Shown here: positions 4,267 to 59,206 of the stretch, one piece after another
Layout: every line of letters starts with the position of its first letter
How positions within the stretch are numbered: position 1 is the stretch's first letter
Virus record (IMG/VR): IMGVR_UViG_3300013006_001433
Coordinates: 1 to 64,000 of that record
Strand: one strand, 5' to 3'
From: a virus
DNA: 64,000 nucleotides
Program-made: the position numbers and the translations under genes
Notes under the pieces: model-generated
The model's database searches: none
Seen by the model: only the letters and a program-made list of their open reading frames with translations
Told to the model about the DNA's origin: nothing

Positions 4267-4495
4267 TTTTAGCTAATTGTTCTTGAGCTTTTTGAAGTCC
4301 ATCTAGGTAATCGGTAAGAAGTTTTTTGCAGAAATTACTGCCATCTGCTCCACAGCATTTTTTAAATTTTTTGTTATTGATTTGGCAAAAATCATTTCTC
4401 TGCATTTTGGGAGCAAGCCTTCTAACGGGTGCTCTAAAATAAGCTTGAACATATGGGGTTATACCATCTTCTTCTTTTTTAAGATCATCATTCAT
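4250..4495 (-). CDS. Small protein with SEC-C-like zinc motif
   Basis: An 81-residue protein. The middle (NDFCQINNKKFKKCCGADG, residues about 35-53) resembles the SEC-C metal-binding motif (C-x-C-x-GxKxKKCCG), although the first CxC pair is reduced to one Cys. The C-terminal third is a charged helix (DYLDGLQKAQEQLAKND). It overlaps the amidinotransferase upstream by 8 nt and purA downstream by 17 nt, so it is translated with them. SEC-C domains bind zinc and partner proteins; no specific function can be given. Confidence 0.5.
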   Translation of the reverse strand: MNDDLKKEEDGITPYVQAYFRAPVRRLAPKMQRNDFCQINNKKFKKCCGADGSNFCKKLLTDYLDGLQKAQEQLAKNDQSS

Positions 4496-6321: not shown

Positions 6322-6350
6322 ATTATATATTATATATTAGTTAATATCAA
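6322..6350 (-). promoter_or_regulatory. Early sigma-70 promoter, nearly leaderless
   Basis: Minus strand: TTGATA (6345-6350), 17-bp spacer, TATAAT (6322-6327), then 8 nt to the ATG at 6311-6313. It overlaps the end of the aminotransferase gene and splits the 11-3.3 kb cluster into two units. Confidence 0.7.
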
Positions 6351-7585
6351 GCTTTTTTCTTAATAAAAACTTTTTCTATTATTGATAATCCCTTGTCGCA
6401 TCCTTCTTTATCTATTGTCAAAGGCGGTAAAGCTATTAAAGAATTATTATCTCCAGAAGTGCACCACATCAATCCATTATTTATAAATTCAAAGAATAGT
6501 CTACCTACTAAATAAGTATTTGGTGTTCTGTCGACTTTATTGATTAATTCAACGGCTATCATTAATCCAATGCCCCTTACTTCTAGTGTTTCTTCTGGAT
6601 AATATTTTTTAAATAGTTTTTCTATATTCGTTCTTAAATACTCTCCCATTGTAATTGAATTTTCGCATAGCTTATCTTGTTCTATAATATCTATATTAGT
6701 TTTAGTTATACTAGTTGAGTATGGGGTCCAGGAGAAAGTAGCGGAAATATCTCCAAATTTATATTTTTTTAAATATTCTTCTTTCACAAGAACTGCTCCA
6801 ATTGCGGAATAACCAGAAGATACGCCTTTAGCAAGTATAATTGCATCTGGTTCAATTTTAAAATAATGCGAAGCAAGCATGTGCCCTATTCTTCCAAATC
6901 CAGTAATTGCTTCATCTAGGATAAGGAAAATATTTCTTTTTTTACATATTTCATAAAATTTTTTCCAATAATCTTTATGGGGTATAATAACTCCTCCGCT
7001 ACCTAAGATTGGTTCAGCTATAAATATTTTTATGTCTGGATTATTATCGAAAAATTCTTCTACTTCTTGCATGGATTCAGAATAGGAATTTGGCGGATCT
7101 AGTTTAATTGATTCATAACCTTTTCTAACGAATGGAAGTTTAAATTTTACTATTTCTCCCATTCCAAGCGTGGCTTGACTCCATCCATGATAAGATCTTT
7201 TGAATGTACCAATTTTGCCATTGGTTATATTAGAGAAAATTGATAAAGCTACTTCATTTGCATTTGCTCCACCAGTAGCTCTTAAACATTTATACTTAGA
7301 TTGTGGAAAAAAAGAAATTAACTTTTTAGCTAGTTCGTCAGCTTCTTGAGTAGGCATCCAAGGAGGGGCGTAATTTGATTTATTAATTTGCTTTATTTGA
7401 GCTTGTAGCATTTTAGGGTTCTGCCAACCAATATTGGCCACTCCATATCCTGCAGAAAAGTCAATATATTCTTTACCTTCTACGTCTATTAACGTATAAT
7501 TTTTGGCAGTTTCAAACGCTGCTGGAATTAAATAAGCAGATGCCATATTATTTTTTAATGATTTGTATAGCAATTTATTGTTCAT
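6347..7585 (-). CDS. Class III PLP-dependent aminotransferase
   Basis: The 412-residue protein has the class III (ornithine, GABA, glutamate-1-semialdehyde type) layout. GKEYIDFSAGYGVANIG is at the N-terminus, ATGGANANEVAL binds cofactor phosphate, LDEAITGFGR contains the PLP-pyridine Asp, and ILAKGVSSGYSAIGAV contains the Schiff-base Lys. Length is normal for the family. It moves an amino group between an amino donor and an aldehyde or ketone. Glutamate-1-semialdehyde aminomutase is a close relative and cannot be excluded. Next to an amidinotransferase, it could make the amine that becomes a guanidino group (inference). Confidence 0.8.
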   Translation of the reverse strand: MNNKLLYKSLKNNMASAYLIPAAFETAKNYTLIDVEGKEYIDFSAGYGVANIGWQNPKMLQAQIKQINKSNYAPPWMPTQEADELAKKLISFFPQSKYKCLRATGGANANEVALSIFSNITNGKIGTFKRSYHGWSQATLGMGEIVKFKLPFVRKGYESIKLDPPNSYSESMQEVEEFFDNNPDIKIFIAEPILGSGGVIIPHKDYWKKFYEICKKRNIFLILDEAITGFGRIGHMLASHYFKIEPDAIILAKGVSSGYSAIGAVLVKEEYLKKYKFGDISATFSWTPYSTSITKTNIDIIEQDKLCENSITMGEYLRTNIEKLFKKYYPEETLEVRGIGLMIAVELINKVDRTPNTYLVGRLFFEFINNGLMWCTSGDNNSLIALPPLTIDKEGCDKGLSIIEKVFIKKKA

Positions 7586-9103: not shown

Positions 9104-9857
9104 ACTTTTTATGTCTTAAAATATATGATATATATCTTGAGTGTCCTTTTCTAAAAGATTCTAAAGTAGAAATAAAATTATATCTTTGATGTAGAATTAA
9201 GTCGTTCTCTAGTAATAAAGCCCCATGAGTTGGTATATTTTCTTCAAAACCAGTAAAAACTATTATATCGTAAATTTTTAAGTCTTTAATAGTTTTTGGA
9301 TTTAAAACTTCAAATCCAACTCGATGATATTCACTTTCATATTTTTCAAGTGACCAAGCGTGTTCGTTAACAGTTTTAAGATCGTTATATGATAAGCCTA
9401 TCCTTTTTGGACTATTTTTTAAGCTTATATCTAAATCTAGTTCATTTTTATAAAAATCTACTATTAACGTTTCGCAATCTGTGACCCCTAATTCATAAGG
9501 TCTATTTATATATTTCTTGTAACATTCTTTTTCTTTTGGATCAAAAATATAAAATTTATCACTTTTAATATTATAAAGATAGTAAACAAGATTATGCTTA
9601 AAACTATTTACAATATCATGAAAAGAAAAAGATAAATTTTTAATATGGGAATGGAAACATCCTATTATATCTCCATATTGTTTTGCATATAGATAACATA
9701 ATGGATCTATAGCAAATGACTCCATTTTGCTTAAAGAGATATTTTTACTTTTTAAAAAGATTTTATTATTTTCTACCTGTACGACAAGACCGCAAGCTTC
9801 TTCTTTTTTATATTTTAATGCATGTTCCTTGGCTTGTATTAAAAAGTCATTTTCCAT
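9096..9857 (-). CDS. Tail assembly protein, JAB + NlpC/P60 (gpK-like copy a)
   Basis: About 253 residues from ATG 9855-9857 (MENDFLIQAKEHAL); an upstream ATG at 9872 would add five residues. The JAB/MPN part shows EEACGLV and FHSHIKNLSFSFHD. The NlpC/P60 part has GVTDCETLIVDFY (Cys) and IPTHGALLLEND (His), so both catalytic residues are present. The known role of the family is a tail-tip peptidase that helps assembly or opens peptidoglycan during DNA entry. The start overlaps the end of the IMPDH-like gene by 11 nt, so it is translated in the same operon. Confidence 0.7.
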   Translation of the reverse strand: MENDFLIQAKEHALKYKKEEACGLVVQVENNKIFLKSKNISLSKMESFAIDPLCYLYAKQYGDIIGCFHSHIKNLSFSFHDIVNSFKHNLVYYLYNIKSDKFYIFDPKEKECYKKYINRPYELGVTDCETLIVDFYKNELDLDISLKNSPKRIGLSYNDLKTVNEHAWSLEKYESEYHRVGFEVLNPKTIKDLKIYDIIVFTGFEENIPTHGALLLENDLILHQRYNFISTLESFRKGHSRYISYILRHKKYA

Positions 9858-10956
9858 GAGCAAAACCTTCATACATGCTGTTGGGGCTATTTCTCACTGC
9901 TTGTATTGTGTCATTCCATAGTCCACCTCGCATATCTTGTAGATTTCTGAATCCTAAATAACTCATAGCACTTCTTAAGCCATTAGTAAAATCATAAACT
10001 ATGTCCTCTATAGTTTTATTTTCTACAATAGGAATAAGAGTATTATCTCCTTCAACAAAAAGATTTTTCTTTGTCCCATCGTGAAGGTCATAATCTTCGA
10101 CAACGTCTTGACTTGCCATTCCTCTATACTTAGCGAATCTTTTTCCATCTATTTCAATAATATTTTCATCATCAACTACATCAGCTAATCCAGCAAAAAT
10201 TCTTCCACAAATAACTGCGTCGCATCCACTAGCAATAGCTTTAACTAAATCCTTTGGATAACGAATACCGCCATCAGCAAGTATACTTGGTCTATGTTCT
10301 GGATTGGGTTTGTCTTGTTTGAATAGATCAACTTGCGACAACTCCCAATTCCTTACGGCTTTCCAAGCGTAATAATTTCCAGTTAAACTCGGACATCCAA
10401 TTCCAGTTTTTACTTGAGTTAAACACATCGAACCTGGTCCAATCAAGTGTCTAAACCCATCTGCTTTTAAATTCGCTAATCTATAAACACTTTCTTTAGT
10501 TAAAGTATTACCGACAATGACATCTTGAGAAAATCCAGAAGTTTTATACCATCTAAGAAAATCTTCAACATTCTTGGCCAAACCATTAGCAGTATCCAAA
10601 AAGTAAATATTTGTAAATGCGCTAGTAGCTCTAATTCTTTCTTCTGCGTCTTTTAAACCAATGGCTGTAACACAAAAATTACTTTCATCTTTAATAATTT
10701 TAGCTTTTACTCTTTGGTCGTCAATGGACATAAATCTATGTAATACTCCTGCTGCGCCAAGTTTATTAATTTTAATACAAGATTTAACTGAAGATACAGT
10801 ATCCATTGGGGAAAGAATAATTGGAATTTTAATATTACAATTCCTTGATATCTTAGTAGTTGTATCTACCTCTTTCCTAGAGGTTATATCTGAAAAATTT
10901 GGGAGTAATGAAATATCATCGTAACTTAAGGCTTCTTTGAATTCTTGTTTTTGCAT
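9847..10956 (-). CDS. guaB: IMP dehydrogenase/GMP reductase family protein
   Basis: The 369-residue TIM-barrel protein has LSYDDISLLPNFSD at the start, LSPMDTVSS (the IMPDH SPMDTV motif), and the active-site loop IGPGSMCLTQVKTGIGCP with the catalytic Cys. ILADGGIRYPKDLVKA and YRGMAS follow, with an IMPDH-like C-terminal segment. The CBS regulatory pair of bacterial IMPDH is absent, which explains the short length. IMPDH makes XMP on the way to GMP; GMP reductase runs the related reverse step. The motifs fit either, with IMPDH slightly favoured. It heads the leftward metabolic operon behind the promoter at 10969-10997. Together with purA it covers both branches leaving IMP. Confidence 0.8.
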   Translation of the reverse strand: MQKQEFKEALSYDDISLLPNFSDITSRKEVDTTTKISRNCNIKIPIILSPMDTVSSVKSCIKINKLGAAGVLHRFMSIDDQRVKAKIIKDESNFCVTAIGLKDAEERIRATSAFTNIYFLDTANGLAKNVEDFLRWYKTSGFSQDVIVGNTLTKESVYRLANLKADGFRHLIGPGSMCLTQVKTGIGCPSLTGNYYAWKAVRNWELSQVDLFKQDKPNPEHRPSILADGGIRYPKDLVKAIASGCDAVICGRIFAGLADVVDDENIIEIDGKRFAKYRGMASQDVVEDYDLHDGTKKNLFVEGDNTLIPIVENKTIEDIVYDFTNGLRSAMSYLGFRNLQDMRGGLWNDTIQAVRNSPNSMYEGFAHGK

Positions 10957-20318: not shown

Positions 20319-21182
20319 ATGGTAACAAATAAAAAGATATTATGGATATCTGATTATAGCTTATCCCATTCTGCTGGAGGAGCCCAAAGAAGTAATGATA
20401 TAATTATCCAAAAAGGCAGAGAATTAGGATATTCTATATTAGAAGCAAATTATAATTTTAATTTCAATATTGAAGATTTTAATCAATATGATATATTAAT
20501 TTCATCCAATTTAGAAGCAATATACAAATTGCATTCTAATATCATAGATAAAATAGCTTCTCACAAGTATCATGTTAGACTTGAGCACGATTCAAATAGA
20601 TACTTGAAACAAGAAGATAGAGAAAAACTTTTTAGATCTTGTAAAAAGACAGTATTTTTAACTAATTTTCATCATAAGTTATTTATTAATAATTATGGAA
20701 ATATTTTTAATGATGTAAAAATCGTAGCGGATCCTATAGATACAGATTTATTCTACAATCAAAACCAAGAAAGAGAAGACAAGATTTTATACGTTGGATT
20801 TATGCATGAGCTAAAAGGCACATTATCGTTTTTTGAATTTGCTATGGACAACCCTCAATTACAATTTGTAGTTGCTGGATGGGGAACAAGAGTTTTTAAT
20901 TTTTTGGCGACCAATACTCCTAATGTACAATATCTAGGAACAGTCTCCCACGAAGAAATGCCTAAGCTTTTTAATAAATATGAAACACTTTTTTATAATC
21001 CAATTATACCAGAACCATTCTGTAGATCAGTTGCGGAAGGTGCATTGTGTGGAATAAAATTAATGTCATCTAGTTCAAATATTATAGGATGTATGCACGA
21101 ATTTCGAGAGTTAGGTAAAGAAAAATTTATTGAAAATTGCAAAAATGCTTCTAACTATTTTTGGGAATCAATTATACAGTAA
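20319..21182 (+). CDS. Glycosyltransferase, GT4-like
   Basis: A 287-residue GT-B-fold protein. The N-terminal domain opens KKILWISDYSLSHSAGGAQR, with the Gly-rich acceptor loop. The C-terminal domain has ILYVGFMHELKGTLSFFEFA and PEPFCRSVAEGALCG, the E-x7-E donor-binding motif of GT4 retaining enzymes. It is slightly shorter than usual for the family. The first gene of the sugar island, it overlaps the next by one base (TAATG). Donor and acceptor are unknown. Confidence 0.75.
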   Translation: MVTNKKILWISDYSLSHSAGGAQRSNDIIIQKGRELGYSILEANYNFNFNIEDFNQYDILISSNLEAIYKLHSNIIDKIASHKYHVRLEHDSNRYLKQEDREKLFRSCKKTVFLTNFHHKLFINNYGNIFNDVKIVADPIDTDLFYNQNQEREDKILYVGFMHELKGTLSFFEFAMDNPQLQFVVAGWGTRVFNFLATNTPNVQYLGTVSHEEMPKLFNKYETLFYNPIIPEPFCRSVAEGALCGIKLMSSSSNIIGCMHEFRELGKEKFIENCKNASNYFWESIIQ

Positions 21183-22096
21183 TGACTATTATATTAGTCA
21201 TAAATAAAACTCTGTCTAGGGGAACAAATTCACATCTAGATTCTGGATATTATAATTTTTATATACCATTACTAGAATTAGGACACAAAGTATTTTTATA
21301 CGACACGATAAAAGGAAATGGAAAACCATTTCAAAATTTAGTAAAAGAAGTTAATCCAGATCTTATTATTTCTATATTGACTGGAAATAAAAACTTAACG
21401 CCATACGAGCCAATAGAAGAAATAGAATCTATAACGAAAGAAAACAAAATAAAGACATTTAATTGGTTTTGCGATGATACATGGAGATTTGATACTTTTA
21501 ATAAAAATATTTGTAAAAAATTTACAGTATGTTCAACACCAGAAGCGAATTATATAAGTAAATACAAACAAGAAGGATATAATAATATATTATTAGGTCT
21601 ATGGCATTGTAATCAAGACTTAAGAGTAGATTCAGATAAAGTATTAAATGTCACTTTTTGCGGCGGGCTGACAAATTCCAGAGCACAAAACTTTAATTAT
21701 CTATCGCAAAATAATGTAGATTTAAAATATTTTCATGGATTATCTTATGAAGACGTCTTAAAAGCTTACTCTATATCTAAAATTGGATTAAATTTAACGG
21801 TAAATGATAATGATGTAGATAAAAAACCTCAAATGAAATTAAGAATATTTGAAATTCCAGCTTCTAAAACATTTCTGTTAACCGAGTATATAGACGATCT
21901 TGAAAATTACTTTGATATTGGGAAAGAAATCGAAACTTTTAAAACTATAGAAGAAGCAAAAGAAAAAATTAATTTCTATTTAAAAAACGATTCAGCTAGA
22001 GAAAATATTGCTAATGCTGGTTATCAAAGATTTTTAAGAGATCATACTTCTAAAATTAGATTAAATAATATAATAAATCAGATAGAAACCTTATGA
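21182..22096 (+). CDS. CgeB-like glycosyltransferase
   Basis: About 304 residues from ATG 21182, which overlaps the previous stop. It resembles the CgeB/Glycos_transf_1_2 group: NWFCDDTWRFDTF (the W-x-x-D-D pattern), VTFCGGLTNSRAQNF, and a C-terminal region with KLRIFEIPASKTFLLTEYID, where a conserved R-x-FE lies before the final domain. It probably transfers a sugar within the same glycan as its neighbours. It overlaps the next gene by 4 nt (ATGA). Confidence 0.65.
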   Translation: MTIILVINKTLSRGTNSHLDSGYYNFYIPLLELGHKVFLYDTIKGNGKPFQNLVKEVNPDLIISILTGNKNLTPYEPIEEIESITKENKIKTFNWFCDDTWRFDTFNKNICKKFTVCSTPEANYISKYKQEGYNNILLGLWHCNQDLRVDSDKVLNVTFCGGLTNSRAQNFNYLSQNNVDLKYFHGLSYEDVLKAYSISKIGLNLTVNDNDVDKKPQMKLRIFEIPASKTFLLTEYIDDLENYFDIGKEIETFKTIEEAKEKINFYLKNDSARENIANAGYQRFLRDHTSKIRLNNIINQIETL

Positions 22097-22992
22097 GAAT
22101 TTATATACAGTTTCATCCCGCCCATGCAGGAAAATGGATTTATAATGGATACGCACACGCATGGTTGTATCATGGATTTGAAGTTAAATTTATTAAATCA
22201 TTAAATGAAATAGATCAAAATGAACCCTATCATTTGATGATAACAGATGGTATAATTTCTGAAAATAATATTCAATTTCTAGAAAAAAGCATTAAAACTA
22301 TTCTATATGTATCACCAAATTTCTATCCAAAACCATGGGGAGATCATCCAAATTGGAAATGCCCACTTAATGAAAACCTTATAGATAAAATTAATCAACT
22401 ACCAAATATAATTAAATGGAATTTTTCAGATGTAAAAAATCAATTTTTCTTTATTTGGAAAAATGTAATTACATTACCATTAGCATTTGATAATATAAAT
22501 TATTCTAATTCAATAAAAGATAAATATGAATATGACGTTTGCTATATTGGTGGTTTAGCTGATAATGGATTTAATGAAAAAATAAAAATAATGCAAGATA
22601 CATTGACTCCATTTTTAGACACAAAATTGAAATGCGCTTTTTTCGTTGCTCAGAACTTGTCTCACGAACAAGAAAATTATATATTAAATAACTCTAAAAT
22701 AGCTTTAAATATACATGACGAATACCAAAGAGTAAATCAATTAGATTGTAATGAAAGAACCTTTAAGGGGTTAGGAGCAAATGGTTTCTTAGTGAGTGAT
22801 AAAATAGAACAATTAAATAGACTTTTTCCACATGTTTTTATGTCAAACAATCCGCAAGAATTAGTTAATTTTTGTTTAGACTTTGCATCGAAAGATGCGA
22901 ATCATATAAATGAAGAAAAATTAAAAAATCAAAAAATGATTGAGTCTAGCCATACTTATATTAAAAGAGTAGAGTATTTATTAAAAATATGA
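22093..22992 (+). CDS. CgeB-like glycosyltransferase, divergent
   Basis: A 299-residue protein. The C-terminal half parallels the CgeB group: YDVCYIGGLADNGFNEKI, SKIALNIHDEYQRVNQLDCN and ERTFKGLGANGFLVSDKIE, the region that normally includes a conserved R-x-F-E and donor site. The N-terminal half (MRIYIQFHPAHAGKWIYNGY) is weakly similar to other GT-B domains. Overlaps of 4 nt on both sides place it firmly in the island operon. Sugar and acceptor unknown. Confidence 0.55.
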   Translation: MRIYIQFHPAHAGKWIYNGYAHAWLYHGFEVKFIKSLNEIDQNEPYHLMITDGIISENNIQFLEKSIKTILYVSPNFYPKPWGDHPNWKCPLNENLIDKINQLPNIIKWNFSDVKNQFFFIWKNVITLPLAFDNINYSNSIKDKYEYDVCYIGGLADNGFNEKIKIMQDTLTPFLDTKLKCAFFVAQNLSHEQENYILNNSKIALNIHDEYQRVNQLDCNERTFKGLGANGFLVSDKIEQLNRLFPHVFMSNNPQELVNFCLDFASKDANHINEEKLKNQKMIESSHTYIKRVEYLLKI

Positions 22993-23714
22993 AAATCAAT
23001 ATTTTTATACCTAACTATAACAAAGAAAATTTTGTTCTAAAATGCCTATCTTCGTGCTTAAATCAAACGCATAAAGATTTAAAAATTATTTTTATAGACA
23101 ACGAAAGTAAAGATAATAGTTTAGATTTAGTTAAAAAATTTCGAGATGAAAATAAATATGACTTCACGATAGATAGTGCTAAAAATATTTATCCAAGATG
23201 TTGGGAAGAATGTATATACAAAGCTTTAGAATATTTCGATGGAGATTTCTTTACAATTGTTGGTTCAGATGATTGGCTTGATCCAAATTATATTGAAAAC
23301 TTTTGCAAATGGTTAGAATTTAAAAATAAAGAGATTTTAATAGCTCAATCGGCTTTACTTTGGATGAAGGATGGAGCAAGAGTTAACTTAGTCAACCATC
23401 CCTATTCTAATATTGAAGAATTAAAATTGAAGTTAACATTAGGCTGTTACGTTAATACTCCGACTGTTTTCTTTAATAAAGAACTTGTGAAAAATGGCCT
23501 TTACAGAACTTATCCAAAACTTTATAGTGGAGCAGCAGATTATGATTTATATTGTCAACTAGTAGATAAAAATATATATATAGAAAATATTGGAGAATGG
23601 ATCGGATATTGCTATAATATTAATGATACTCAAGCAACTTGGCAAATGCATGGGGATACAATTAATTATTCAAATGTTATTCGTAAAAAATGGAGAGACA
23701 AATGGAAGATCTAA
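22989..23714 (+). CDS. Glycosyltransferase family 2
   Basis: A 241-residue GT-A protein: INIFIPNYNKENFVLKCLSS with SCLNQTHKDLKIIFIDNESK is the classic GT2 start, and TIVGSDDWLDPNY (about residues 92-104) is the DxD-type metal-nucleotide motif. There is no membrane segment. GT2 enzymes are inverting transferases of O-antigen and similar glycans. It overlaps the next gene by about 25 nt if that gene starts at its first ATG. Confidence 0.8.
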   Translation: MKINIFIPNYNKENFVLKCLSSCLNQTHKDLKIIFIDNESKDNSLDLVKKFRDENKYDFTIDSAKNIYPRCWEECIYKALEYFDGDFFTIVGSDDWLDPNYIENFCKWLEFKNKEILIAQSALLWMKDGARVNLVNHPYSNIEELKLKLTLGCYVNTPTVFFNKELVKNGLYRTYPKLYSGAADYDLYCQLVDKNIYIENIGEWIGYCYNINDTQATWQMHGDTINYSNVIRKKWRDKWKI

Positions 23715-25015
23715 ATAATATTCTAAATTTGGTTAAATCTTATATAGATAATAAACCTAATACTTGGGAACCTGGAAAAGACTGGGTCCAATATGCTGGA
23801 CCATTTTTTGATTCTACGGAATATACTTCAGCAATTAGTACGCTATTAAATGGGTGGTTAGTACTTGGAGAAAAAGGCATTTCATTTGAAAATCAATTTC
23901 CTAAACTTTTAAATAAAGAATATGGAATATTAACTAATAGCGGAAGTAGTTCAAATTTAATAATGATGTCAGCAATGAAATCAAAAAGATTATATAATTT
24001 TCCAAATGGAACAAAAGTAATTACTCCAATCGCTGGATTCCCAACCACAATAAACCCTATATTTCAAGTTGGATTTACCCCAGCTTTTGTAGACATCGAC
24101 TTAGATACTCTTAATTTAAACTTAGATCAAGTAGAACAACAAGCCAAAAATGGTGCAAAAATTATTACATTCGCTCATGTATTAGGCAATCCACCAAATA
24201 TGAGAAGACTTATGGATATTATAAAAGAATATAATTTAATCCTACTAGAAGATTGTTGTGACGCTTTAGGATCAACATACGACAATAAACCTCTTGGTAG
24301 TTTTGGAGAATTCGCTAGCTGTTCATTTTATCCAGCACATCATATGACAATGGGAGAAGGTGGGTTCATAGCATGTAACACTTATAATCAAGAAGTTGTA
24401 ATTAGAAGTTTTAGAGAATGGGGAAGAGGATGCTATTGTGTTGGTAAAAAAGCTAATCTATTAAAAAATGGCACATGTAAAAATAGATTTTCTAATTGGT
24501 TGCCCTCTATACCAGATGAAATTTTTGATCATAAATATATCTATGATGAAATTGGTTATAATTTAAAACCTATAGAATTACAAGCAGCAATAGGGTTATG
24601 CCAAATGAAAAAGCTTCCAGAAATTCATACTCGTAGAAAATTAAATCATATGAGATTAGTTAAAATATTTAGTGAGTTTGAAGAATATTTTATATTACCA
24701 AAAGCTACAGACTGGGCAGATCCAAGTTGGTTTGCTTTTGCGTTAACCATTAAAGATAATGCACCATTCAAAAGGAAAGATATTGTACATTATCTTGAAG
24801 ATAACAAAATACAAACAAGACCATATTTTGCTGGTAATATTATGTTGCAACCAGCTTATGATGGACTTATGGATAAAAATGAAGTAATTAATAAATTTCC
24901 AGTATCAAGAAAAGTAACAACTGACACTTTCTTTCTTGGTACAAGTCCAGTTATAGGAGAAAAACAATTAGATTATATAGAAAATACAGTATATAATTAT
25001 TTCAAAACATTATGA
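23690..25015 (+). CDS. NDP-4-keto-6-deoxyglucose 3-dehydrase, E1/RfbH type
   Basis: A DegT/DnrJ/EryC1-family protein of 441 residues (or 437 from the ATG at 23702). The position that holds PLP-binding Lys in aminotransferases is His here (FYPAHHMTMGEGG, about residue 218). This is the hallmark of sugar 3-dehydrases. Cysteines at about 190, 248, 250 and 263 reproduce the C-x57-C-x-C spacing of the iron-sulfur E1 enzyme that makes 3,6-dideoxyhexoses. Together with a reductase it removes the C3 hydroxyl of CDP-4-keto-6-deoxyglucose. The neighbouring 4,6-dehydratase would make its substrate. A dedicated E3 reductase is not seen in the window. Confidence 0.8.
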   Translation: MERQMEDLNNILNLVKSYIDNKPNTWEPGKDWVQYAGPFFDSTEYTSAISTLLNGWLVLGEKGISFENQFPKLLNKEYGILTNSGSSSNLIMMSAMKSKRLYNFPNGTKVITPIAGFPTTINPIFQVGFTPAFVDIDLDTLNLNLDQVEQQAKNGAKIITFAHVLGNPPNMRRLMDIIKEYNLILLEDCCDALGSTYDNKPLGSFGEFASCSFYPAHHMTMGEGGFIACNTYNQEVVIRSFREWGRGCYCVGKKANLLKNGTCKNRFSNWLPSIPDEIFDHKYIYDEIGYNLKPIELQAAIGLCQMKKLPEIHTRRKLNHMRLVKIFSEFEEYFILPKATDWADPSWFAFALTIKDNAPFKRKDIVHYLEDNKIQTRPYFAGNIMLQPAYDGLMDKNEVINKFPVSRKVTTDTFFLGTSPVIGEKQLDYIENTVYNYFKTL

Positions 25016-25965
25016 AAGTAGTATACATAACAGGATGCCTTGGTTTTATAGGTTCTTATATAACTAGATTATCCTTAAATAAGGGTTGGCATGTTAAAGG
25101 CGTAGATAAAATAACATACGCCGCAAACCAAGATCTTCTTAAAGAGTTTAATAAGTATCCAAATTTTTCATTTGTTCATTGTGATATAAATGATCTTAAG
25201 TTTTTGTACGATTGCGATTATATTATCAATACCGCAGCAGAAACTCATGTTGGCAACTCAATAAGCAATAGTGACGATTTTATACATTCAAATATTGATG
25301 GTGTGCATAATTTATTAGAATTAATTAGAAACTACAGACAAGAGCATACAACTGTTCCTACTTTAATACATTTTAGTACAGATGAAGTTTATGGAGATGT
25401 TGATCATGGAGCGCATACAGAGAAAGACCTATTGAAACCATCAAATCCATATTCAGCAACAAAAGCAGCCGCAGACATGTTAATCTTAGCATGGGCAAGA
25501 ACTTATAAAACAAACTATATAATTGTAAGACCAACGAACAATTATGGAATTGGTCAATATGTAGAAAAGCTTATTCCTAAAGCATGCAAGTATTTAAATT
25601 TAGGCAGAAAAATACCATTACATAATTCTGGATCACCCATTAGAAATTGGCTTCATGCAGAAGATACCGCAAATGCAATTATAAAAATTATTGAAAGTAA
25701 TGTTAAAAATGAAATATATAATATTGCAGGTGGATTTGAACAATCAAATCTTGATACAGTCAAAAAAATCTTAGAGATATATCTGAATACAAAAGATTTT
25801 AATTTAGTAGATTACATAGATCTTTCATATTCTAGACAAGGACAAGACGTTAGATATGCTCTAGACGACACCAAATTAAGAAGTTTAAATTGGAAATCGA
25901 ATAAAGTCTTTGACGAGGAAATAAAAAGCATAGTTGATTATTACAATAATAAATTTATATGGTAA
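25012..25965 (+). CDS. NDP-glucose 4,6-dehydratase-like SDR
   Basis: A 317-residue extended SDR: YITGCLGFIGSY is the NAD-binding GxxGxxG motif, HFSTDEVYGD carries the Thr-Asp-Glu of RmlB-type dehydratases, and NPYSATKAAADML is the YxxxK catalytic pair. It removes water from NDP-glucose to give the 4-keto-6-deoxy sugar. The nucleotide (dTDP or CDP) cannot be told from motifs; the E1/RfbH-type gene next to it suggests CDP. It overlaps both neighbours by 4-7 nt. Confidence 0.82.
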   Translation: MKVVYITGCLGFIGSYITRLSLNKGWHVKGVDKITYAANQDLLKEFNKYPNFSFVHCDINDLKFLYDCDYIINTAAETHVGNSISNSDDFIHSNIDGVHNLLELIRNYRQEHTTVPTLIHFSTDEVYGDVDHGAHTEKDLLKPSNPYSATKAAADMLILAWARTYKTNYIIVRPTNNYGIGQYVEKLIPKACKYLNLGRKIPLHNSGSPIRNWLHAEDTANAIIKIIESNVKNEIYNIAGGFEQSNLDTVKKILEIYLNTKDFNLVDYIDLSYSRQGQDVRYALDDTKLRSLNWKSNKVFDEEIKSIVDYYNNKFIW

Positions 25966-26585
25966 AAGAAGATTTAATAAATTTTGAAAAAGAAATAGCT
26001 GATCTATTTAATTCTGGTCAGATAAAATCTCCAGTTCATCTTTATTCTGGAAACGAAGATCTTATGATCGAAATTTTTAAAAACATTGATATTGAGAATG
26101 ATTGGGTATGTTCCGCATGGCGTAACCATTATCAAGGTTTATTAAAAGGAATACCTCAAGACATATTAAAGCAAAATATTATACAAGGTAAATCTATGGT
26201 AGCTAATTTACCACAATATAAATTTATATGCAGTTCTATAGTTGGAGGGATTCCTTCAATTGCAGCGGGTATTGCGATGTCAATTAAAGTTAAAAATAAA
26301 ACTAATAAGGTTTGGTGTTGGGTTGGCGACATGTCTTCTGAAACTGGCGCTTTTCATGAGGCTTACAAATATAGTTTAAATCATGATCTTCCAATTACAT
26401 TTATAATTGAGGATAACAAGAAATCGGTATGTTCGCCAACTCAAAGGATTTGGAACAGAGAAAAGCCATATTATTTAGATAAAGATTATACTGGAGGTCT
26501 ATTAGTTCAAAAAAATTTAATATACTACCAATATGACAATCAAAAATATCCTCATGCTGGAGCAGGGAAAAGAGTACAGTTTTAA
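25959..26585 (+). CDS. Thiamine-diphosphate enzyme, E1 alpha-like subunit
   Basis: A 208-residue protein resembling the alpha subunit of 2-oxoacid dehydrogenase E1 enzymes but shorter (usually about 320-360). The diagnostic part is WVGDMSSETGAFHEAYKYSL followed by LPITFIIEDNKKSVCSPT, the GDG(M) ... N thiamine-diphosphate/Mg motif. An adjacent beta-like gene completes the pair. Such split enzymes decarboxylate a 2-oxo acid and transfer the aldehyde unit. Between a 3-dehydrase and an SDR, the likely job is adding a two-carbon branch to a sugar, as in yersiniose synthesis (inference). Confidence 0.7.
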   Translation: MVKEDLINFEKEIADLFNSGQIKSPVHLYSGNEDLMIEIFKNIDIENDWVCSAWRNHYQGLLKGIPQDILKQNIIQGKSMVANLPQYKFICSSIVGGIPSIAAGIAMSIKVKNKTNKVWCWVGDMSSETGAFHEAYKYSLNHDLPITFIIEDNKKSVCSPTQRIWNREKPYYLDKDYTGGLLVQKNLIYYQYDNQKYPHAGAGKRVQF

Positions 26586-26589
26586 TTTT

Positions 26590-27126
26590 ATGAAATACTT
26601 TGAAGAACTTAAAAAAGCAATGACCATGCTATCTGAGCATCCCGATACTCTTTTTATAGGACAATCCATAGAATATGAGGGAACTGGTCTTTATGATTCG
26701 TTAACTCATATACCAGCTCATAAAAAAATAGAACTACCAGTAGCAGAATATCTTCAAGCGGGCCTAGCGAATGGAATGGCAATAGAAGGTATAATTCCAA
26801 TATCTACTTATCCAAGATGGAATTTTTTATTAATGGCAACAGATCAAATAGTAAATCATTCAGATAAATTCAAAGAAATGTCAAATGGAAAATGTCTTCC
26901 TAAATTAATAATTCGCGTTGCGGTTGGTAGCGAAAGGCCAATAGATCCACAATGTCAACATAAAGGAAATTTTTCAGAAGCATTTAGACTGATGATGAAC
27001 AATACAGAAATAATTGAATTGAAAGAACCAGAAGAAATTTTGCCAGCATATATAAAAGCATTAAATAGAAATGATGGAGTTATTACAATACTTGTAGAAT
27101 TTGCAGATTACTCAAAAGAAAAATAA
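26590..27126 (+). CDS. Thiamine-diphosphate enzyme, E1 beta-like subunit
   Basis: About 178 residues from ATG 26590, four bases after the alpha stop. A longer start at 26533 would overlap alpha by 50 nt. The segment ELPVAEYLQAGLANGMAIEG is the conserved Glu and helix of E1 beta/transketolase pyrimidine domains, which activates thiamine diphosphate. LLMATDQIVNHSDKFKEMS and LIIRVAVGSERPIDPQCQH follow the E1 beta pattern. The C-terminal transketolase domain is largely missing, so this is a pyrimidine-domain-sized protein. It should form the active site with the alpha protein. Confidence 0.7.
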   Translation: MKYFEELKKAMTMLSEHPDTLFIGQSIEYEGTGLYDSLTHIPAHKKIELPVAEYLQAGLANGMAIEGIIPISTYPRWNFLLMATDQIVNHSDKFKEMSNGKCLPKLIIRVAVGSERPIDPQCQHKGNFSEAFRLMMNNTEIIELKEPEEILPAYIKALNRNDGVITILVEFADYSKEK

Positions 27127-27141
27127 CTTTTACAAATTAAT

Positions 27142-27972
27142 ATGAAAATTTTTTTAACTGGAAGTAATGGTTATATAGCTAAAAATATATACGAATACTT
27201 TAAAGATCGATATGTTTTCTTTCTAGCTAACAGAGAATCAGTAGATCTTACAAACATAAATGATTTGAAAAACAAAATAACAAATTTTAAGCCAGATATA
27301 ATTATTCATACAGCAATAGAAGGAGGCAGGAGAAATGAAGCTGATACAGCAGATATGGCTTATAGGAATATATTGATTTTTGAAAATTTAATATCCTTTA
27401 AAGAGCAAGTTAAATTTATTTTTAATATTGGATCTGGAGCAGAATTTGATAGGTCTAGAAATATTTCTTACGCAAATGAAGAGGATATATTTTCTGTATT
27501 ACCAATTGATTATTATGGATTTTCTAAAAATTTAATATCAAGAAAGATAAATATTTTAAATTCAAATATAATAAATTTAAGAATATTTGGCATCTTTAAT
27601 CATAAAGAATTAGTCTCTAGATTTATAAAAACTAATATTTTGAAAATTCACGAAAACGAAGAACCAATTATACATGAAAATAAATATATGGATTATATAT
27701 ACATGGACGATTTTTTAGAAGCATTAAAATATTACTTAAATATTGAAAAACCAAAATACAAAGATATTAATATATGTTACGAAAAAAAATATAAGTTAAC
27801 AGATTTAATTAATTTAATATATATAAATTTTAATAAAAAACAAAGAATAGATCAATATATGGTAAATGGATTAAGTTATACTGGAAATGGATCTAAAATA
27901 AATTCTTTAAATTTGCCATTTAAAGGAATAGAATATGGTATGAAGGAAATGATTAAAAATATTATAAAATGA
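27142..27972 (+). CDS. NAD(P)-dependent sugar epimerase/reductase (SDR)
   Basis: A 276-residue extended SDR with KIFLTGSNGYIAKNI (GxxGxxA nucleotide site), IGSGAEFDR around the catalytic Ser, and YYGFSKNLIS (YxxxK). The C-terminal substrate domain is short and Ile/Asn/Lys-rich. It could reduce or epimerise the product of the preceding enzymes, for example the 4-keto or branched sugar; its position suits this but the exact reaction is unknown. It overlaps the next gene by 4 nt. Confidence 0.65.
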   Translation: MKIFLTGSNGYIAKNIYEYFKDRYVFFLANRESVDLTNINDLKNKITNFKPDIIIHTAIEGGRRNEADTADMAYRNILIFENLISFKEQVKFIFNIGSGAEFDRSRNISYANEEDIFSVLPIDYYGFSKNLISRKINILNSNIINLRIFGIFNHKELVSRFIKTNILKIHENEEPIIHENKYMDYIYMDDFLEALKYYLNIEKPKYKDINICYEKKYKLTDLINLIYINFNKKQRIDQYMVNGLSYTGNGSKINSLNLPFKGIEYGMKEMIKNIIK

Positions 27973-28769
27973 AAAATACAGCCTGCTTCTTCTACTCAGA
28001 CTCAGAAAAATATTCAAAATTACTAGAATGCGCAATGAACAGCTTTGAAAAATTTCATCCAGATATACCGATTATTCTATTAACAAGAAAAGACCCAAAT
28101 ATTTATCAAGCAGTAGATAAATTTCAGCAAGCATTAAATATATGTTTGTATAATAATTATGAAAAGGCAATTTTTCTTGGTGCGGATACTATAACATGCT
28201 CAAGGCTTGATGAGTTTCTAGAATCCGAAGAGGACATACTTGCCACGTTAGATTATCCTTATAGATTAGTTACAAAATATGTAGCAACTCCAGATGATCA
28301 AACACATGTCAACGCTGATGTATTATGTATTAATAATTTATCATTTATGTACAAACTTTGTGAGATAACCACGAAATGTCCAACAGAATATTGGGAACAA
28401 GGAGCACTCAATCAAATAATTTGGAATAGAATTAATAATTATTCTTGTAGAATAATAGATGCGCCGTATAATACATCAAAAATTATCTATAATACCAGAG
28501 CAAAAGGAAATATAATTGCGCAATCTGGAGAAAAGCCATGGCATAATTATACCCAGCATTGGAAAGTCTCGGATAATAAACTATACTCGCATGACAATAA
28601 ACAAATTAAAGTTTTTCATTATTGCGAAGGTCTTGGCACACTTAATAATGATAAATTTGAAGAGATAATAAATTACTGGATAGATACAGCTTTTAATAAA
28701 GAAAGCAAAGCATTTTTTGAAGAATATTGTAATTGCGGTGATTTTTTTAAAAAGCAATTCAAAATATGA
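27969..28769 (+). CDS. GT8-like / nucleotide-diphospho-sugar transferase
   Basis: A 266-residue GT-A-fold protein. The motif AIFLGADTITCSRLDEFLES (about residues 67-86) is the DxD-type donor site of GT8-like enzymes. HVNADVLCINNLSFM and EYWEQGALNQIIWN continue the usual order (product-side Asn and the ExGxxNQ motif). HYCEGLGTLNN near the end may be the distal His metal ligand. It transfers a sugar to an unknown acceptor. It overlaps both neighbours by 4 nt. Confidence 0.65.
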   Translation: MKNTACFFYSDSEKYSKLLECAMNSFEKFHPDIPIILLTRKDPNIYQAVDKFQQALNICLYNNYEKAIFLGADTITCSRLDEFLESEEDILATLDYPYRLVTKYVATPDDQTHVNADVLCINNLSFMYKLCEITTKCPTEYWEQGALNQIIWNRINNYSCRIIDAPYNTSKIIYNTRAKGNIIAQSGEKPWHNYTQHWKVSDNKLYSHDNKQIKVFHYCEGLGTLNNDKFEEIINYWIDTAFNKESKAFFEEYCNCGDFFKKQFKI

Positions 28770-29683
28770 AGATTTTAATAACTGGTGGAACAAGCATGGT
28801 CGGGAAACACCTTAAAAAGTATTTACCTAATGCAATTTATTTATCCAGCAAAGATTGCGATTTATTTGATAGCAAAAAAACTAGAGAACTTATATTAGAT
28901 ACAAAACCTAATAAAGTAGTGCATTTAGCCGCGAAAGTTGGCGGAATAATGGACAACATATCTAACCCAGTAGGATTTTTTGAAGATAATATATTTATGA
29001 ATACAAATGTTTTAAAATATTCATATGAAGCAAAAGTAGATCAATTCATTGGTATTCTCAGCACATGCATCTATCCAGATCAAGTTTCAGATAATCTCTA
29101 TCCAATGAAAGAAGATTTATTGCATTTGGGACCACCAACTCCAACTAACTTTTCTTATGGCTACGCTAAAAGATGCTTGGCCGTTCAAATTGATGCTTAT
29201 AATAAACAATTTAATACAAACTACAATTATCTAACGCCTTGCAATTTATATTCAGAGCACGATCATTTTGAAGGAAATAAAGCTCATTTCTTATCTAGCT
29301 TAATTCATAAGATTTATCAGGCTAAAATTAATAATACCAAAGAAATTAATTTAATGGGCTCTGGATCCCCTTTAAGGCAATTTATGTATGCGGATGATTT
29401 AGCCAGAGTAATACATTTATTTATTGAAAATAACATTATTGAAAATTGTAACGTATGCACAGATGAAGTTAAAACTATTAAAGAAATTGCAGAAATAGCC
29501 TTAAAAGCTTGCGATGCTTCGGATATTGATTTGGTATGGGATACTACTAAGCCAGATGGTCAATACAGAAAAGATGCATCTTCAGATAAACTATTAAACA
29601 TTTTTAAAGATTTTAAATTTACTTTTTTAGAGAATGGAATCAAAAACACATATAATCAATATGTGGAAGCTAAACGAGTCTAA
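28766..29683 (+). CDS. colC: GDP-L-colitose / GDP-L-fucose synthase-like SDR (ColC-like)
   Basis: A 305-residue SDR of the GDP-fucose synthase type: KILITGGTSMVGKHL, AAKVGGIMDN, LSTCIYPD, YGYAKR (YxxxK) and KPDGQYRKDAS near the end. GDP-fucose synthase and ColC carry out C5 epimerisation and C4 reduction on a GDP-4-keto sugar. Because the adjacent genes are a His-type 3-dehydratase (ColD) and GMD, I read it as the ColC-like step giving GDP-L-colitose rather than GDP-L-fucose. The symbol is inferred from context. Confidence 0.72.
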   Translation: MKILITGGTSMVGKHLKKYLPNAIYLSSKDCDLFDSKKTRELILDTKPNKVVHLAAKVGGIMDNISNPVGFFEDNIFMNTNVLKYSYEAKVDQFIGILSTCIYPDQVSDNLYPMKEDLLHLGPPTPTNFSYGYAKRCLAVQIDAYNKQFNTNYNYLTPCNLYSEHDHFEGNKAHFLSSLIHKIYQAKINNTKEINLMGSGSPLRQFMYADDLARVIHLFIENNIIENCNVCTDEVKTIKEIAEIALKACDASDIDLVWDTTKPDGQYRKDASSDKLLNIFKDFKFTFLENGIKNTYNQYVEAKRV

Positions 29684-30806
29684 CTTTACTTTAAAAGATA
29701 AGTGTAAAATAGCCAAATTCTTCTTTCAAAAGAAAGATATGTGGACTATGGGCGATCAAGTTAAAACATTTGAACGCAAAATGGCGAAATTTGCTAGTTC
29801 AAAATATGCTGTATTTGTAGCGAATGGTTCAGTTGCTAATACTTTAATAGCCATGTATCTAAAAGACAAAGTATATAAACCAAATAAAAATATAATAGTA
29901 TTTCCATCTACAACGTGGGTCACATCGGTTTCGCCATTCATCAGAGAAGGTTTTACCCCAGAATTTATTGATATTAACCTAGATGATTGGTCAATTGACT
30001 TAAACAGCCTAGAAAAATTTTTAAAATCTAAAGCTGAACATGTAGCTTGCATTTTTATCACAAGCCTTCTTGGGTATACTCCAAATATTAATAAAATCAA
30101 AGAATTATCAGAAAAATACAAGGTAAAAGTAATGATGGATAATTGCGAAAATACTTTTGGCGAATTTGAAAATAAAAATGTTAGTTCTTTTTTTACTTCT
30201 ACGACTAGCACTTACTTTGGGCATCAACTGCAAAGCGTTGAAGGTGGTTTTGTTTTTACGGATTGCAAGGATGAATATGAATATTTTTTAATGGCAAGGA
30301 ATCACGGCATGTCAAGAAGCGTGCCAGATCCAAAGCCTTTTCTAAATAAAAATGTAGATTCAAGATTTGATTTTCATTTATTAGGCAATAATTTCAGAAA
30401 CACTAATATTCACGCATTTATTGGGCTTCTAGACTTTGAAAGAATATCATTTTATATAGAAGAAAGAATTAAAATATACAAATACTACGAAAGCAAATAT
30501 CAACACGCAGATTTATTACCTAAATATTTTGATGACAGACTGCATGTACCATTTTGTATACCAATTATTTGCAAAAGCAAAGAAGAAAGAGATAAGGCTT
30601 TAGAGTTTTGCAGATATAATCATATTGAAACAAGACCTATAATTTCTGGCAATTTACTAAAACAAACATGTTTTCAAAAATATGGAGATTATAAAAAATA
30701 TAAAAATAGCGAATTTTTGGATCAATACGCTTTTTACGTTGGCCTTCATAGTAAAGTAAATAAAAATATTTTAGATAAACTGCTAAAATATCTCAATAAT
30801 ATCTAA
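29661..30806 (+). CDS. colD: GDP-4-keto-6-deoxymannose 3-dehydratase (ColD-like)
   Basis: A DegT/AHBA-family protein of 381 residues from ATG 29661; an ATG at 29634 adds nine. The Lys that binds PLP in aminotransferases is replaced by His in TYFGHQLQSVEGGF. With the chosen start this is His188, the same number as the catalytic His of E. coli ColD. It lacks the Cys set of the iron-sulfur E1 enzyme, as ColD does. It removes the 3-OH of GDP-4-keto-6-deoxymannose using PLP and glutamate. GMD directly downstream supplies the substrate, and the SDR upstream would finish the colitose pathway. Confidence 0.8.
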   Translation: MWKLNESNFTLKDKCKIAKFFFQKKDMWTMGDQVKTFERKMAKFASSKYAVFVANGSVANTLIAMYLKDKVYKPNKNIIVFPSTTWVTSVSPFIREGFTPEFIDINLDDWSIDLNSLEKFLKSKAEHVACIFITSLLGYTPNINKIKELSEKYKVKVMMDNCENTFGEFENKNVSSFFTSTTSTYFGHQLQSVEGGFVFTDCKDEYEYFLMARNHGMSRSVPDPKPFLNKNVDSRFDFHLLGNNFRNTNIHAFIGLLDFERISFYIEERIKIYKYYESKYQHADLLPKYFDDRLHVPFCIPIICKSKEERDKALEFCRYNHIETRPIISGNLLKQTCFQKYGDYKKYKNSEFLDQYAFYVGLHSKVNKNILDKLLKYLNNI

Positions 30807-30807
30807 T

Positions 30808-31860
30808 ATGAAGAAAATTATTATAACTGGTGTTAGTGGTCAAGACGGTTCTTATATGGCGGAACATTGTTTAGCTTTGGGGCATAAAGTCTACGGGATA
30901 GTAAGAAGGTCATCTAATCCAAATTATAGTAATTTAATTAATGTAATTAATAATGCTAATTTTAAATTTGTTTATGCAGATTTATCTGATTTTTCATCCA
31001 TTGAAAATGCAATAAGAGAAATAGAACCAGATTATTTTATTAATTTTGCCGCTCAATCTTATGTAGGCGCAAGCTGGGTAATGCCAGAGCAAACATTTGA
31101 TATTACTGCCATGGGTGTTTTAAGATGTCTAGAAGCTATTAGAAAAAATTCTACAAAATGTAAATTCTATAGTGCTGGATCTAGCGAAGAAATGGGAAAT
31201 GTTGAATACAGCCCACAGGATCTTAAGCATCCATTGAAACCAAGATCTCCATATGGAGCAGCAAAAGCAGCTGCTAGACATATAACTAAAGTTTATAGAG
31301 AGTCTTATAATTTATATGCAATTCACTGTATTTTATATAATCATGAAAGCGAAAGACGAGGAGAAGAATTTGTAACTAGAAAAATAACAAAAGGCGTAGC
31401 AAGAATTAATTATGCCTTAAAAAATAAACTACCATTCGAACCAATTGAATTAGGAAATTTAGATTCAAAAAGAGATTGGAGCCATGCTAAAGATTTTGTT
31501 GAAGGAATATGGGAAATGCTTAATCAAGAATCTCCAAAGGAATATATTCTTTCTTCAAATGAAACTCATAGTATCAGAGAATTTGTAGAAAAATCATTTA
31601 AAAATATTGGTATTGATGGACATTGGATTTATATAAATGATGGCAGACCAGAAGACGAAGGATATTATCTAAAAGATAATAATGGCAATCATGTACTATT
31701 GGTTAAAGTTAATCCCAAATTTTATAGGCCAGCAGAAGTCGATCTATTATTAGGAGACTCTTCTTTAGCTAGACAAGAGCTAAATTGGGAGCCTAAAATT
31801 TCATTTGACAATCTAGTAAAAAGAATGGTAGAATGGGACGTTGAAAATTACAAACCATAA
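30808..31860 (+). CDS. gmd: GDP-mannose 4,6-dehydratase
   Basis: A 350-residue SDR with ITGVSGQDGSYMAEHCL and YGIVRRSS (NADP binding), NFAAQSYVGASW, a Ser/Ser-Glu catalytic site (AGSSEEMGN), and RSPYGAAKAAA (YxxxK). ILYNHESERRGEEFVTRKIT and GNLDSKRDWSHAKDFV are strong GMD signatures. It turns GDP-mannose into GDP-4-keto-6-deoxymannose, feeding the ColD-like enzyme. GDP-mannose must come from the host, since no mannose-1-phosphate guanylyltransferase is seen here. Length is normal. Confidence 0.92.
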   Translation: MKKIIITGVSGQDGSYMAEHCLALGHKVYGIVRRSSNPNYSNLINVINNANFKFVYADLSDFSSIENAIREIEPDYFINFAAQSYVGASWVMPEQTFDITAMGVLRCLEAIRKNSTKCKFYSAGSSEEMGNVEYSPQDLKHPLKPRSPYGAAKAAARHITKVYRESYNLYAIHCILYNHESERRGEEFVTRKITKGVARINYALKNKLPFEPIELGNLDSKRDWSHAKDFVEGIWEMLNQESPKEYILSSNETHSIREFVEKSFKNIGIDGHWIYINDGRPEDEGYYLKDNNGNHVLLVKVNPKFYRPAEVDLLLGDSSLARQELNWEPKISFDNLVKRMVEWDVENYKP

Positions 31861-59194: not shown

Positions 59195-59206
59195 ATTACA
59201 CCATTA
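59195..59206 (-). promoter_or_regulatory. Late-type promoter motif inside the tail operon
   Basis: Minus strand TTAATGGTGTAAT ends 8 nt before the ATG at 59186 and overlaps the stop of the preceding 1177-residue gene. Confidence 0.55.

Follow-up and report, generated by a model that had tools for sequence, protein, structure and literature searches.

The stretch of viral DNA analysed here (the window) is the first 64,000 nt, positions 1 to 64,000, of the IMG/VR virus record IMGVR_UViG_3300013006_001433, a record of 78,158 bp. Inside a plus-strand block of sugar genes spanning approximately 20.3–31.9 kb, it carries a five-gene cassette that includes a short pair of proteins resembling the alpha and beta subunits of thiamine diphosphate (ThDP)-dependent E1 enzymes (hereafter the E1 pair). 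The five genes lie head to tail on the plus strand and encode, in this order, an RfbH/E1-type 3-dehydrase for nucleoside diphosphate (NDP)-4-keto-6-deoxyhexoses, dependent on pyridoxamine phosphate (PMP) and a [2Fe-2S] cluster (23690..25015; hereafter RfbH), an RmlB-type (dTDP-glucose-like) NAD-dependent 4,6-dehydratase (25012..25965), a 208-aa E1-alpha-like subunit (25959..26585), a 178-aa E1-beta-like subunit (26590..27126) and a short-chain dehydrogenase/reductase (SDR) of the RmlD/epimerase family (27142..27972). Successive genes are separated by −3, −6, +5 and +16 nt, the next open reading frame (ORF) beyond the SDR gene follows with a gap of −3 nt, and the five genes form one tight operon. 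A preliminary description of this DNA had placed the same five genes here, and we amend it for the start of the beta gene: the first ATG, at 26533, was rejected, since an N-terminal extension is absent from most relatives, which start at the position matching 26590.

RfbH scored 452.7 bits against NF011936, above the cut-off of 423, and is thus a member of this curated family; its best PDB match was the Yersinia E1 dehydrase (3bcx, 335 bits). Its cluster motif reads Cys190-x57-Cys248-x-Cys250, the C-x57-C-x-C spacing that had been reported earlier, followed at +13 by a fourth cysteine (C263), which comes after a five-residue insertion relative to the Yersinia enzyme. The position of the lysine that binds pyridoxal phosphate is occupied by His-His, in the motif YPAHHMTMGEGG. 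A pattern check of close viral relatives found the Cys motif in 131/131 and the His motif in 130/131. No gene for a Fer2-domain protein, and hence no E3-type reductase, was seen in the possibly incomplete 78-kb record, as the preliminary description had remarked for the window, and we therefore assume that RfbH would receive its electrons from the host. General ferredoxin or flavodoxin systems can serve another E1-type dehydrase, SpnQ.

The 4,6-dehydratase contains both the STDEVYG and the YSATK motifs, and its best PDB matches are of the dTDP type (2hun, 254 bits). The dTDP-type model TIGR01181 gave the best score of all models (295.7 bits); because this score is below the cut-off of 365.1, the protein is best described, from its sequence, as RmlB-like rather than RmlB. 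By contrast, the model of the CDP-glucose 4,6-dehydratases RfbG/DdhB (TIGR02622) gave 77.8 bits against a cut-off of 278.5, and this identity was rejected. The CDP-linked substrate first envisaged is thus less likely than a dTDP-linked one, and the nucleotide is probably dTDP. No NTP_transferase gene was found in the 78-kb record (which may be incomplete) and this, taken with the dTDP-type dehydratase, suggests that the pathway starts from host dTDP-glucose. Finally, the SDR matched the Epimerase and RmlD families (PF01370/PF04321) and contains TGxxGxxA and YxxxK.

The E1-alpha subunit matched PF00676 (57.7 bits), and its profile retrieved human pyruvate dehydrogenase E1-alpha as the best PDB match (1.8e-17). 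For E1-beta, the match to PF02779 (24.2 bits) was below the gathering score and PF02780 was not matched; a profile made from its relatives retrieved human E1-beta as the best PDB match (5e-16, residues 6–172). The subunit ends where the pyrimidine-binding (PYR) domain of E1-beta ends (residue 172–177 of about 330), the transketolase C-terminal domain being gone. An AlphaFold2 model of E1-alpha comprises a confident ThDP diphosphate-binding (PP) domain (mean predicted local distance difference test, 94.1), which superposes on 1umb/1ni4 with a Z score of 19.6 and covers residues 37–268 of the 362 of E1-alpha, without the C-terminal third; the structural matches to DXS and transketolase were more distant. 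The PYR fold was modelled on a fused alpha–beta homologue (400 aa), not on the window's own E1-beta. In that model (predicted template modelling score, 0.92), the PP and PYR domains are arranged as in one transketolase chain, to residue 477, with a Z score of about 20 across 350 residues and the third domain gone.

The catalytic and Mg-ThDP-binding residues H57, D124 and N153 of the alpha subunit are invariant in 48 aligned rows, G123-D124 and H199 being kept as well, and E53 (the catalytic glutamate, in "PVAE") and H124 of the beta subunit are invariant in 43 aligned rows. This invariance holds down to sequences that are only 36–40% identical. We take the human counterparts of H57α, D124α, N153α, E53β and H124β to be His63α, Asp167α, Asn196α, Glu59β and His128β, respectively. 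A loss of the catalytic glutamate, which the beta "GQS" in place of the E1-beta "GEE" might have indicated, was dismissed because the alignment with human E1-beta puts this residue at the invariant E53. As judged from these alignments, the E1 pair keeps every catalytic and Mg-ThDP residue.

In a tree to which the ordinary E1-alpha from part of the genomes concerned had been added, the short type formed one clade (99/98), whose members come from phages, cyanophages, megaphages and a few bacteria or archaea. It did not group with the ordinary 2-oxoacid dehydrogenases, as the proposal of the preliminary description requires. Search scores across 296 Actinomycetota genomes were bimodal, with two short-type matches at E<1e-80 and all others, nearly all of them long proteins, at E≥4e-31. 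A pattern scan confirmed at least 531 of the 599 candidates listed from the viral collection versus at least 16 of the 595 listed from the genome collection, counts that are not true frequencies, the patterns having been drawn mostly from viral sequences. A host-pyruvate-dehydrogenase-like origin was rejected on the separate clade and the discrete score gap, and by these measures the pair belongs to a family of its own, mostly viral, and is not the host pyruvate dehydrogenase. It shares homologous PP and PYR domains and the same catalytic residues with the alpha2beta2 E1 of pyruvate and branched-chain 2-oxoacid dehydrogenases, from which it differs by its separate clade, by the missing beta C-terminal domain, alpha C-terminal third and E2/E3 partner, and by its sugar-gene surroundings.

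The family also includes the proteins of cyanophages S-SM2 and P-TIM68 filed as PHROG 34187 or "transketolase central region-containing protein", which are 35–41% identical. These differ from the window pair in that alpha and beta are fused, the neighbours are a Zn-dependent alcohol dehydrogenase (Zn-ADH), a sugar kinase and a phosphoheptose isomerase, and the annotation is transketolase-like or unknown function. A DegT-family protein with His-His for the lysine (3-dehydratase type) comes after the pair in Verrucomicrobia and Acidimicrobiales. Four verrucomicrobial loci (L017, L018, L019 and L022, the alpha subunit only being seen in L022) have the minimal E1 pair beside an HddA-like GHMP kinase and a B12-radical S-adenosylmethionine (SAM) protein, the His-type DegT 3-dehydratase coming after the pair in L018 and L019; this arrangement is possibly a different, branched heptose pathway. 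In a Pelagibacteraceae single amplified genome (L021:4226-8106), a transketolase-like split pair (280 and 305 aa, by inspection) directly adjoins the minimal E1 pair.

The linkage of the pair to the other cassette genes was examined in 53 dereplicated viral loci found via E1-alpha, whose flanks were searched (IMG/VR contigs are often fragments). E1-beta was adjacent in 53/53, a close RmlB relative was present in 50/53 and an SDR relative in 51/53, directly after E1-beta in 43/53. RfbH or a shorter His-type relative occurred within the flanks in 42/53, and RfbH stood directly before E1-alpha in 12/53. Nineteen of the 26 contigs without a close RfbH near the pair matched RfbH somewhere on the whole contig, mostly through the shorter His type already counted, five of them having a close RfbH (64–68%) further off; the other seven contigs, on which nothing matched RfbH, are fragments 4.7 to 22.7 kb long. 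Gene order varies (RmlB-E1a-E1b-SDR or RfbH-E1a-E1b-SDR-RmlB) and the set is kept across dozens of viral contigs. Such shuffling indicates that the set is retained not merely through common descent of one stretch. The shorter relative that takes the place of RfbH beside the E1 pair, found at L006:4853-5995 and in 10 further loci, is 380–386 aa long, carries "SFYASHVITAGG" (His, no lysine) and is devoid of the C-x50-64-C-x-C motif.

The preliminary description had suggested that the pair may do the job of YerE, the ThDP enzyme of the yersiniose pathway (DdhA–D, YerE and YerF in Yersinia pseudotuberculosis VI), which combines the same 4,6-dehydratase, RfbH (DdhC), ThDP enzyme and reductase in the same step logic. 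The window differs in that its ThDP enzyme is of the unrelated two-subunit E1 type, whereas YerE is a single flavoprotein-type chain with TPP_enzyme N, M and C domains, and in that its dehydratase is of the dTDP type and neither a DdhA nor a DdhD gene is seen. With its E1_dh and Transket_pyr domains and none of the TPP_enzyme domains, the window pair is not a member of the YerE family, though it may work like YerE.

A reverse search from RfbH gave 79 further loci. Many RfbH loci without the E1 pair carry an acetolactate-synthase-type enzyme of 575–610 aa, typically right or close after RmlB. A domain scan of one such enzyme showed TPP_enzyme N, M and C, and among PDB entries it scored highest with 8rph (375 bits, the next match scoring 246), which is JanthE, a YerE-like enzyme (PMC12188165). 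YerE/JanthE-like proteins thus fill the slot of the E1 pair in sister viral cassettes: examples beside RfbH and RmlB are L105:9147-10892, L107:10379-12136 and L112:12741-14471, along with about 40 further viral ORFs. Among 44 dereplicated RfbH-seeded loci, seven have the E1 pair, 24 a YerE-like gene, none both and 13 neither (P=0.002). Across the two samples, which were seeded differently, a YerE-like gene is present in 5/53 E1 loci versus 24/37 E1-less RfbH loci (Fisher p = 3e-8). Viral cassettes with RfbH and RmlB thus have, for the most part, one of the two ThDP enzymes and not the other.

The SDRs found beside either ThDP enzyme group together in a single clade that is separate from the Fcl-type SDRs, and on well-supported branches the partner switches between E1 and YerE at least eight times for the SDR, at least six times for RmlB and at least eight times for RfbH. 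The window RfbH itself falls in a three-row clade (99) whose other two sequences are linked to E1 and to YerE, respectively. If both ThDP enzymes do the same step, such repeated exchange of two non-homologous enzymes among shared partners is what would be expected. Together, the linkage with RfbH, the 4,6-dehydratase and the SDR and the replacement of YerE-like enzymes are strong indirect evidence for the YerE-like role first suggested.

In our view, the probable product of the cassette is a nucleotide sugar, namely a C-branched 3,6-dideoxyhexose whose branch would be added by the E1 pair. The most likely predicted role of the pair is the YerE step, namely the transfer of a two-carbon branch from pyruvate onto an NDP-4-keto-3,6-dideoxyhexose. 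In such a pathway, the RmlB-type enzyme would convert NDP-glucose (probably host dTDP-glucose) into NDP-4-keto-6-deoxyglucose, from which RfbH, using PMP, the [2Fe-2S] cluster and electrons supplied by the host, would remove the 3-OH to give NDP-4-keto-3,6-dideoxyglucose. The E1 pair would hold Mg-ThDP between the PP domain of alpha and the PYR domain of beta and decarboxylate pyruvate, and the resulting hydroxyethyl carbanion would be joined to the C4 ketone, yielding a tertiary alcohol with an acetyl branch. The SDR, for which we propose a YerF-like role as ketoreductase of this branch, would then reduce the acetyl to a hydroxyethyl group, the NDP-4-C-acetyl- intermediate giving a yersiniose-like NDP-4-C-(1-hydroxyethyl)-3,6-dideoxyhexose. 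Nearby glycosyltransferases could use this branched sugar to modify a glycan of the virion or of the host surface.

Several observations weigh against this pathway. The RmlB- and SDR-type families are promiscuous, and neither an electron source nor a source of NDP-glucose was found in the 78-kb record. The E1 pair and YerE-like genes do not strictly exclude each other, as both are carried by five of the 53 E1 loci. Moreover, the members of this E1 family in cyanophages and several bacteria have Zn-ADH, sugar kinases, an isomerase and radical SAM proteins as neighbours, without RfbH, so that the family need not share one acceptor.

An alternative that we regard as unlikely, yet worth keeping in view, is that the pair transfers a non-acetyl unit from a hydroxylated or longer 2-oxo acid, as in ErwE-like enzymes, so that the sugar would be branched without being yersiniose-like. 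Donors do vary among YerE relatives (ErwE, JanthE; PMC12247030), and the alpha subunit is remodelled past residue 153, near the active-site loop, so its donor pocket may differ. Pyruvate is nevertheless favoured by the closest family, which is pyruvate dehydrogenase E1, by the apparent limitation of the aKADH2 branching enzymes to C2 branches (PMC12247030) and by the SDR directly after the pair, which would be able to reduce an acetyl branch.

A second possibility is that the E1 pair and RfbH serve two sugars made in one island, the acceptor of the pair being the plain 4-keto-6-deoxyhexose produced by RmlB and the product being paulomycose-like, with the 3-OH kept. The flanks would fit this, in that they contain RmlB in 50/53 loci versus RfbH (≥50% identity) in 33/53. 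We find it improbable, however, in view of the 12 loci in which RfbH comes directly before E1-alpha and of the co-switching of RfbH between E1 and YerE partners; besides, the RfbH-less loci mostly have another His-type dehydrase, a distant RfbH or a contig end.

Still more improbable, in our assessment, is a DXS- or transketolase-like carboligase acting on a sugar phosphate or a free aldose to make a deoxyketose precursor, its proximity to RfbH reflecting a shared sugar island only. DXS and transketolase are among the structural matches, albeit the more distant ones; the fused form stands beside Zn-ADH in S-SM2, P-TIM68 and Kaiserbacteria, with a PfkB-type kinase as well in S-SM2; phosphoheptose isomerase and nucleotidyltransferase genes lie near the cyanophage form, and an HddA-like GHMP kinase is found in Verrucomicrobia. 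By contrast, in the clade of the window pair it is RmlB, the SDR and RfbH (or a His-type relative) that are the constant partners, and kinases or isomerases are not; a His-type 3-dehydratase follows even the verrucomicrobial and acidimicrobial pairs, and the swap with YerE-like enzymes indicates a ketosugar acceptor. A non-catalytic role, as a degraded or regulatory remnant of E1 (for instance a decoy for host pyruvate dehydrogenase), is scarcely credible: both subunits are far shorter than E1 and the beta C-terminal domain is gone, but the Mg-ThDP ligands and catalytic residues stay invariant down to 36–40% identity, alpha and beta are always retained together, among sugar genes, and the clade is separate from host E1.

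The branching of a ketosugar by a split E1 has precedents in the aKADH2 pairs (AviB1/AviB2, Pau11/Pau12, the aldgamycin and kosinostatin pairs, KbDH-alpha/beta), which are of the same split E1 type and attach a pyruvate-derived C2 branch, often reduced afterwards (PMC12247030, PMC4753412, PMC4425429). The aldgamycin pair was characterized by knock-outs and feeding and KbDH in vitro with pyruvate and ketones, no structure being known for the aKADH2 ketone-branching enzymes (PMC12247030); branching roles were proposed for AviB1/B2 and Pau11/12, and Pau7 is a characterized reductase of the branch (PMC4753412, PMC4425429). The window pair, which we set beside AviB1, Pau11 and KbDH by description, shares with them a two-subunit E1-type ThDP enzyme, intact catalytic residues and a location beside ketosugar genes. 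It differs in size (208 and 178 aa, compared with the nearly full-length 325 aa of Pau11 and 345 aa of Pau12), in its coupling to RfbH and in its phage home, the known pairs belonging to actinomycete antibiotic pathways.

The addition of a C2 branch by a split E1 is thus not new in kind, as full-length pairs do so in antibiotic pathways (aldgamycin, kibdelomycin, paulomycin, avilamycin). The earlier claim of a new architecture for branched sugars therefore goes too far, the novelty lying in the reduced two-domain form, the use of RfbH and the viral home. A literature search that covered few subscription papers, so that absence proves little, found no description of the reduced two-domain form, the RfbH coupling, the phage home or the exchange with YerE, nor any phage-encoded branched-sugar ThDP enzyme.

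We narrowly favour a broader proposal, in which phages would hold a distinct, widespread class of alpha/beta ThDP carboligases for branched 3,6-dideoxysugars, built of two domains (PP and PYR) with no third. Within one modular cassette, this class would be swapped with the unrelated YerE-like enzyme, diversifying the glycans of the surface or the virion, and its relatives in free-living bacteria would be rare. If so, viral production of branched, yersiniose-like sugars is extensive, and a single cassette accommodates either of two unrelated ThDP enzymes interchangeably. The pair would then be among the smallest E1/transketolase-type carboligases and useful for producing chiral tertiary alcohols. 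Viral auxiliary metabolic genes annotated as "acetolactate synthase", "transketolase" or "pyruvate dehydrogenase" may likewise be surface-sugar genes. In one survey of viruses, acetolactate synthase is listed together with rfbG, gmd and fcl (PMC8226683), and rfbH appears in a second survey (PMC10653327). The viral "acetolactate synthase" entries of surveys may be YerE/JanthE-like enzymes.

Upstream of the cassette and joined directly to it, four plus-strand ORFs (20319..23714) are glycosyltransferase-like, the one at 22989-23714 being a GT2 enzyme by PF00535 and the others by inspection; a PHROG search with the first (20319-21182) gave no match. Syntenic relatives of these ORFs are present in L037 and L109, and their products are possible users of the cassette sugar. 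Downstream lies a colitose-type set on the plus strand (28766..31860), the "first" deoxysugar set of this DNA, which encodes Fcl/ColC-like (NF047922), ColD-like and Gmd (TIGR01472) proteins, the ColD-like protein matching ColD (2gms/3gr9) with 152 bits. In three other viral loci (L005:9132-10976, L112:6040-7941 and L119:5000-6907), the sugar cassettes adjoin genes for proteins of 614–635 aa that, by inspection only, resemble a sugar nucleotidyltransferase, a HAD-like region and a kinase-like region in one chain.

The remaining genes of the record are those of a phage, including a DnaB-like helicase, a DNA polymerase, tail proteins and, by inspection, a ribonucleotide reductase. A RecA/UvsX-like protein was uninformative as a guide to the host, its matches being only ~24–25%. 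On the minus strand, a PurA/PurZ-like synthetase (3274-4266; phrog_1211; 260 bits with the PurA model and 101 bits with the PurZ model, neither reaching the cut-off) and an IMP dehydrogenase/GMP reductase-like protein (9847-10956) may take part in purine or DNA-base modification. The same strand encodes an amidinotransferase-like protein (4488-5666, by inspection; phrog_25854, labelled unknown function in PHROG) and a phage-encoded glutamate-1-semialdehyde-type aminotransferase (6347-7585). It also encodes a large tail-tip-like protein (48104-53185) whose N-terminal ~150 aa resemble HINT/intein domains (43 bits with PT-HINT and, below the cut-off, 32 bits with Intein_splicing) and end in VHN-K ahead of a proline run, and a structural protein with repeated GYEQKY units (59204-62737).

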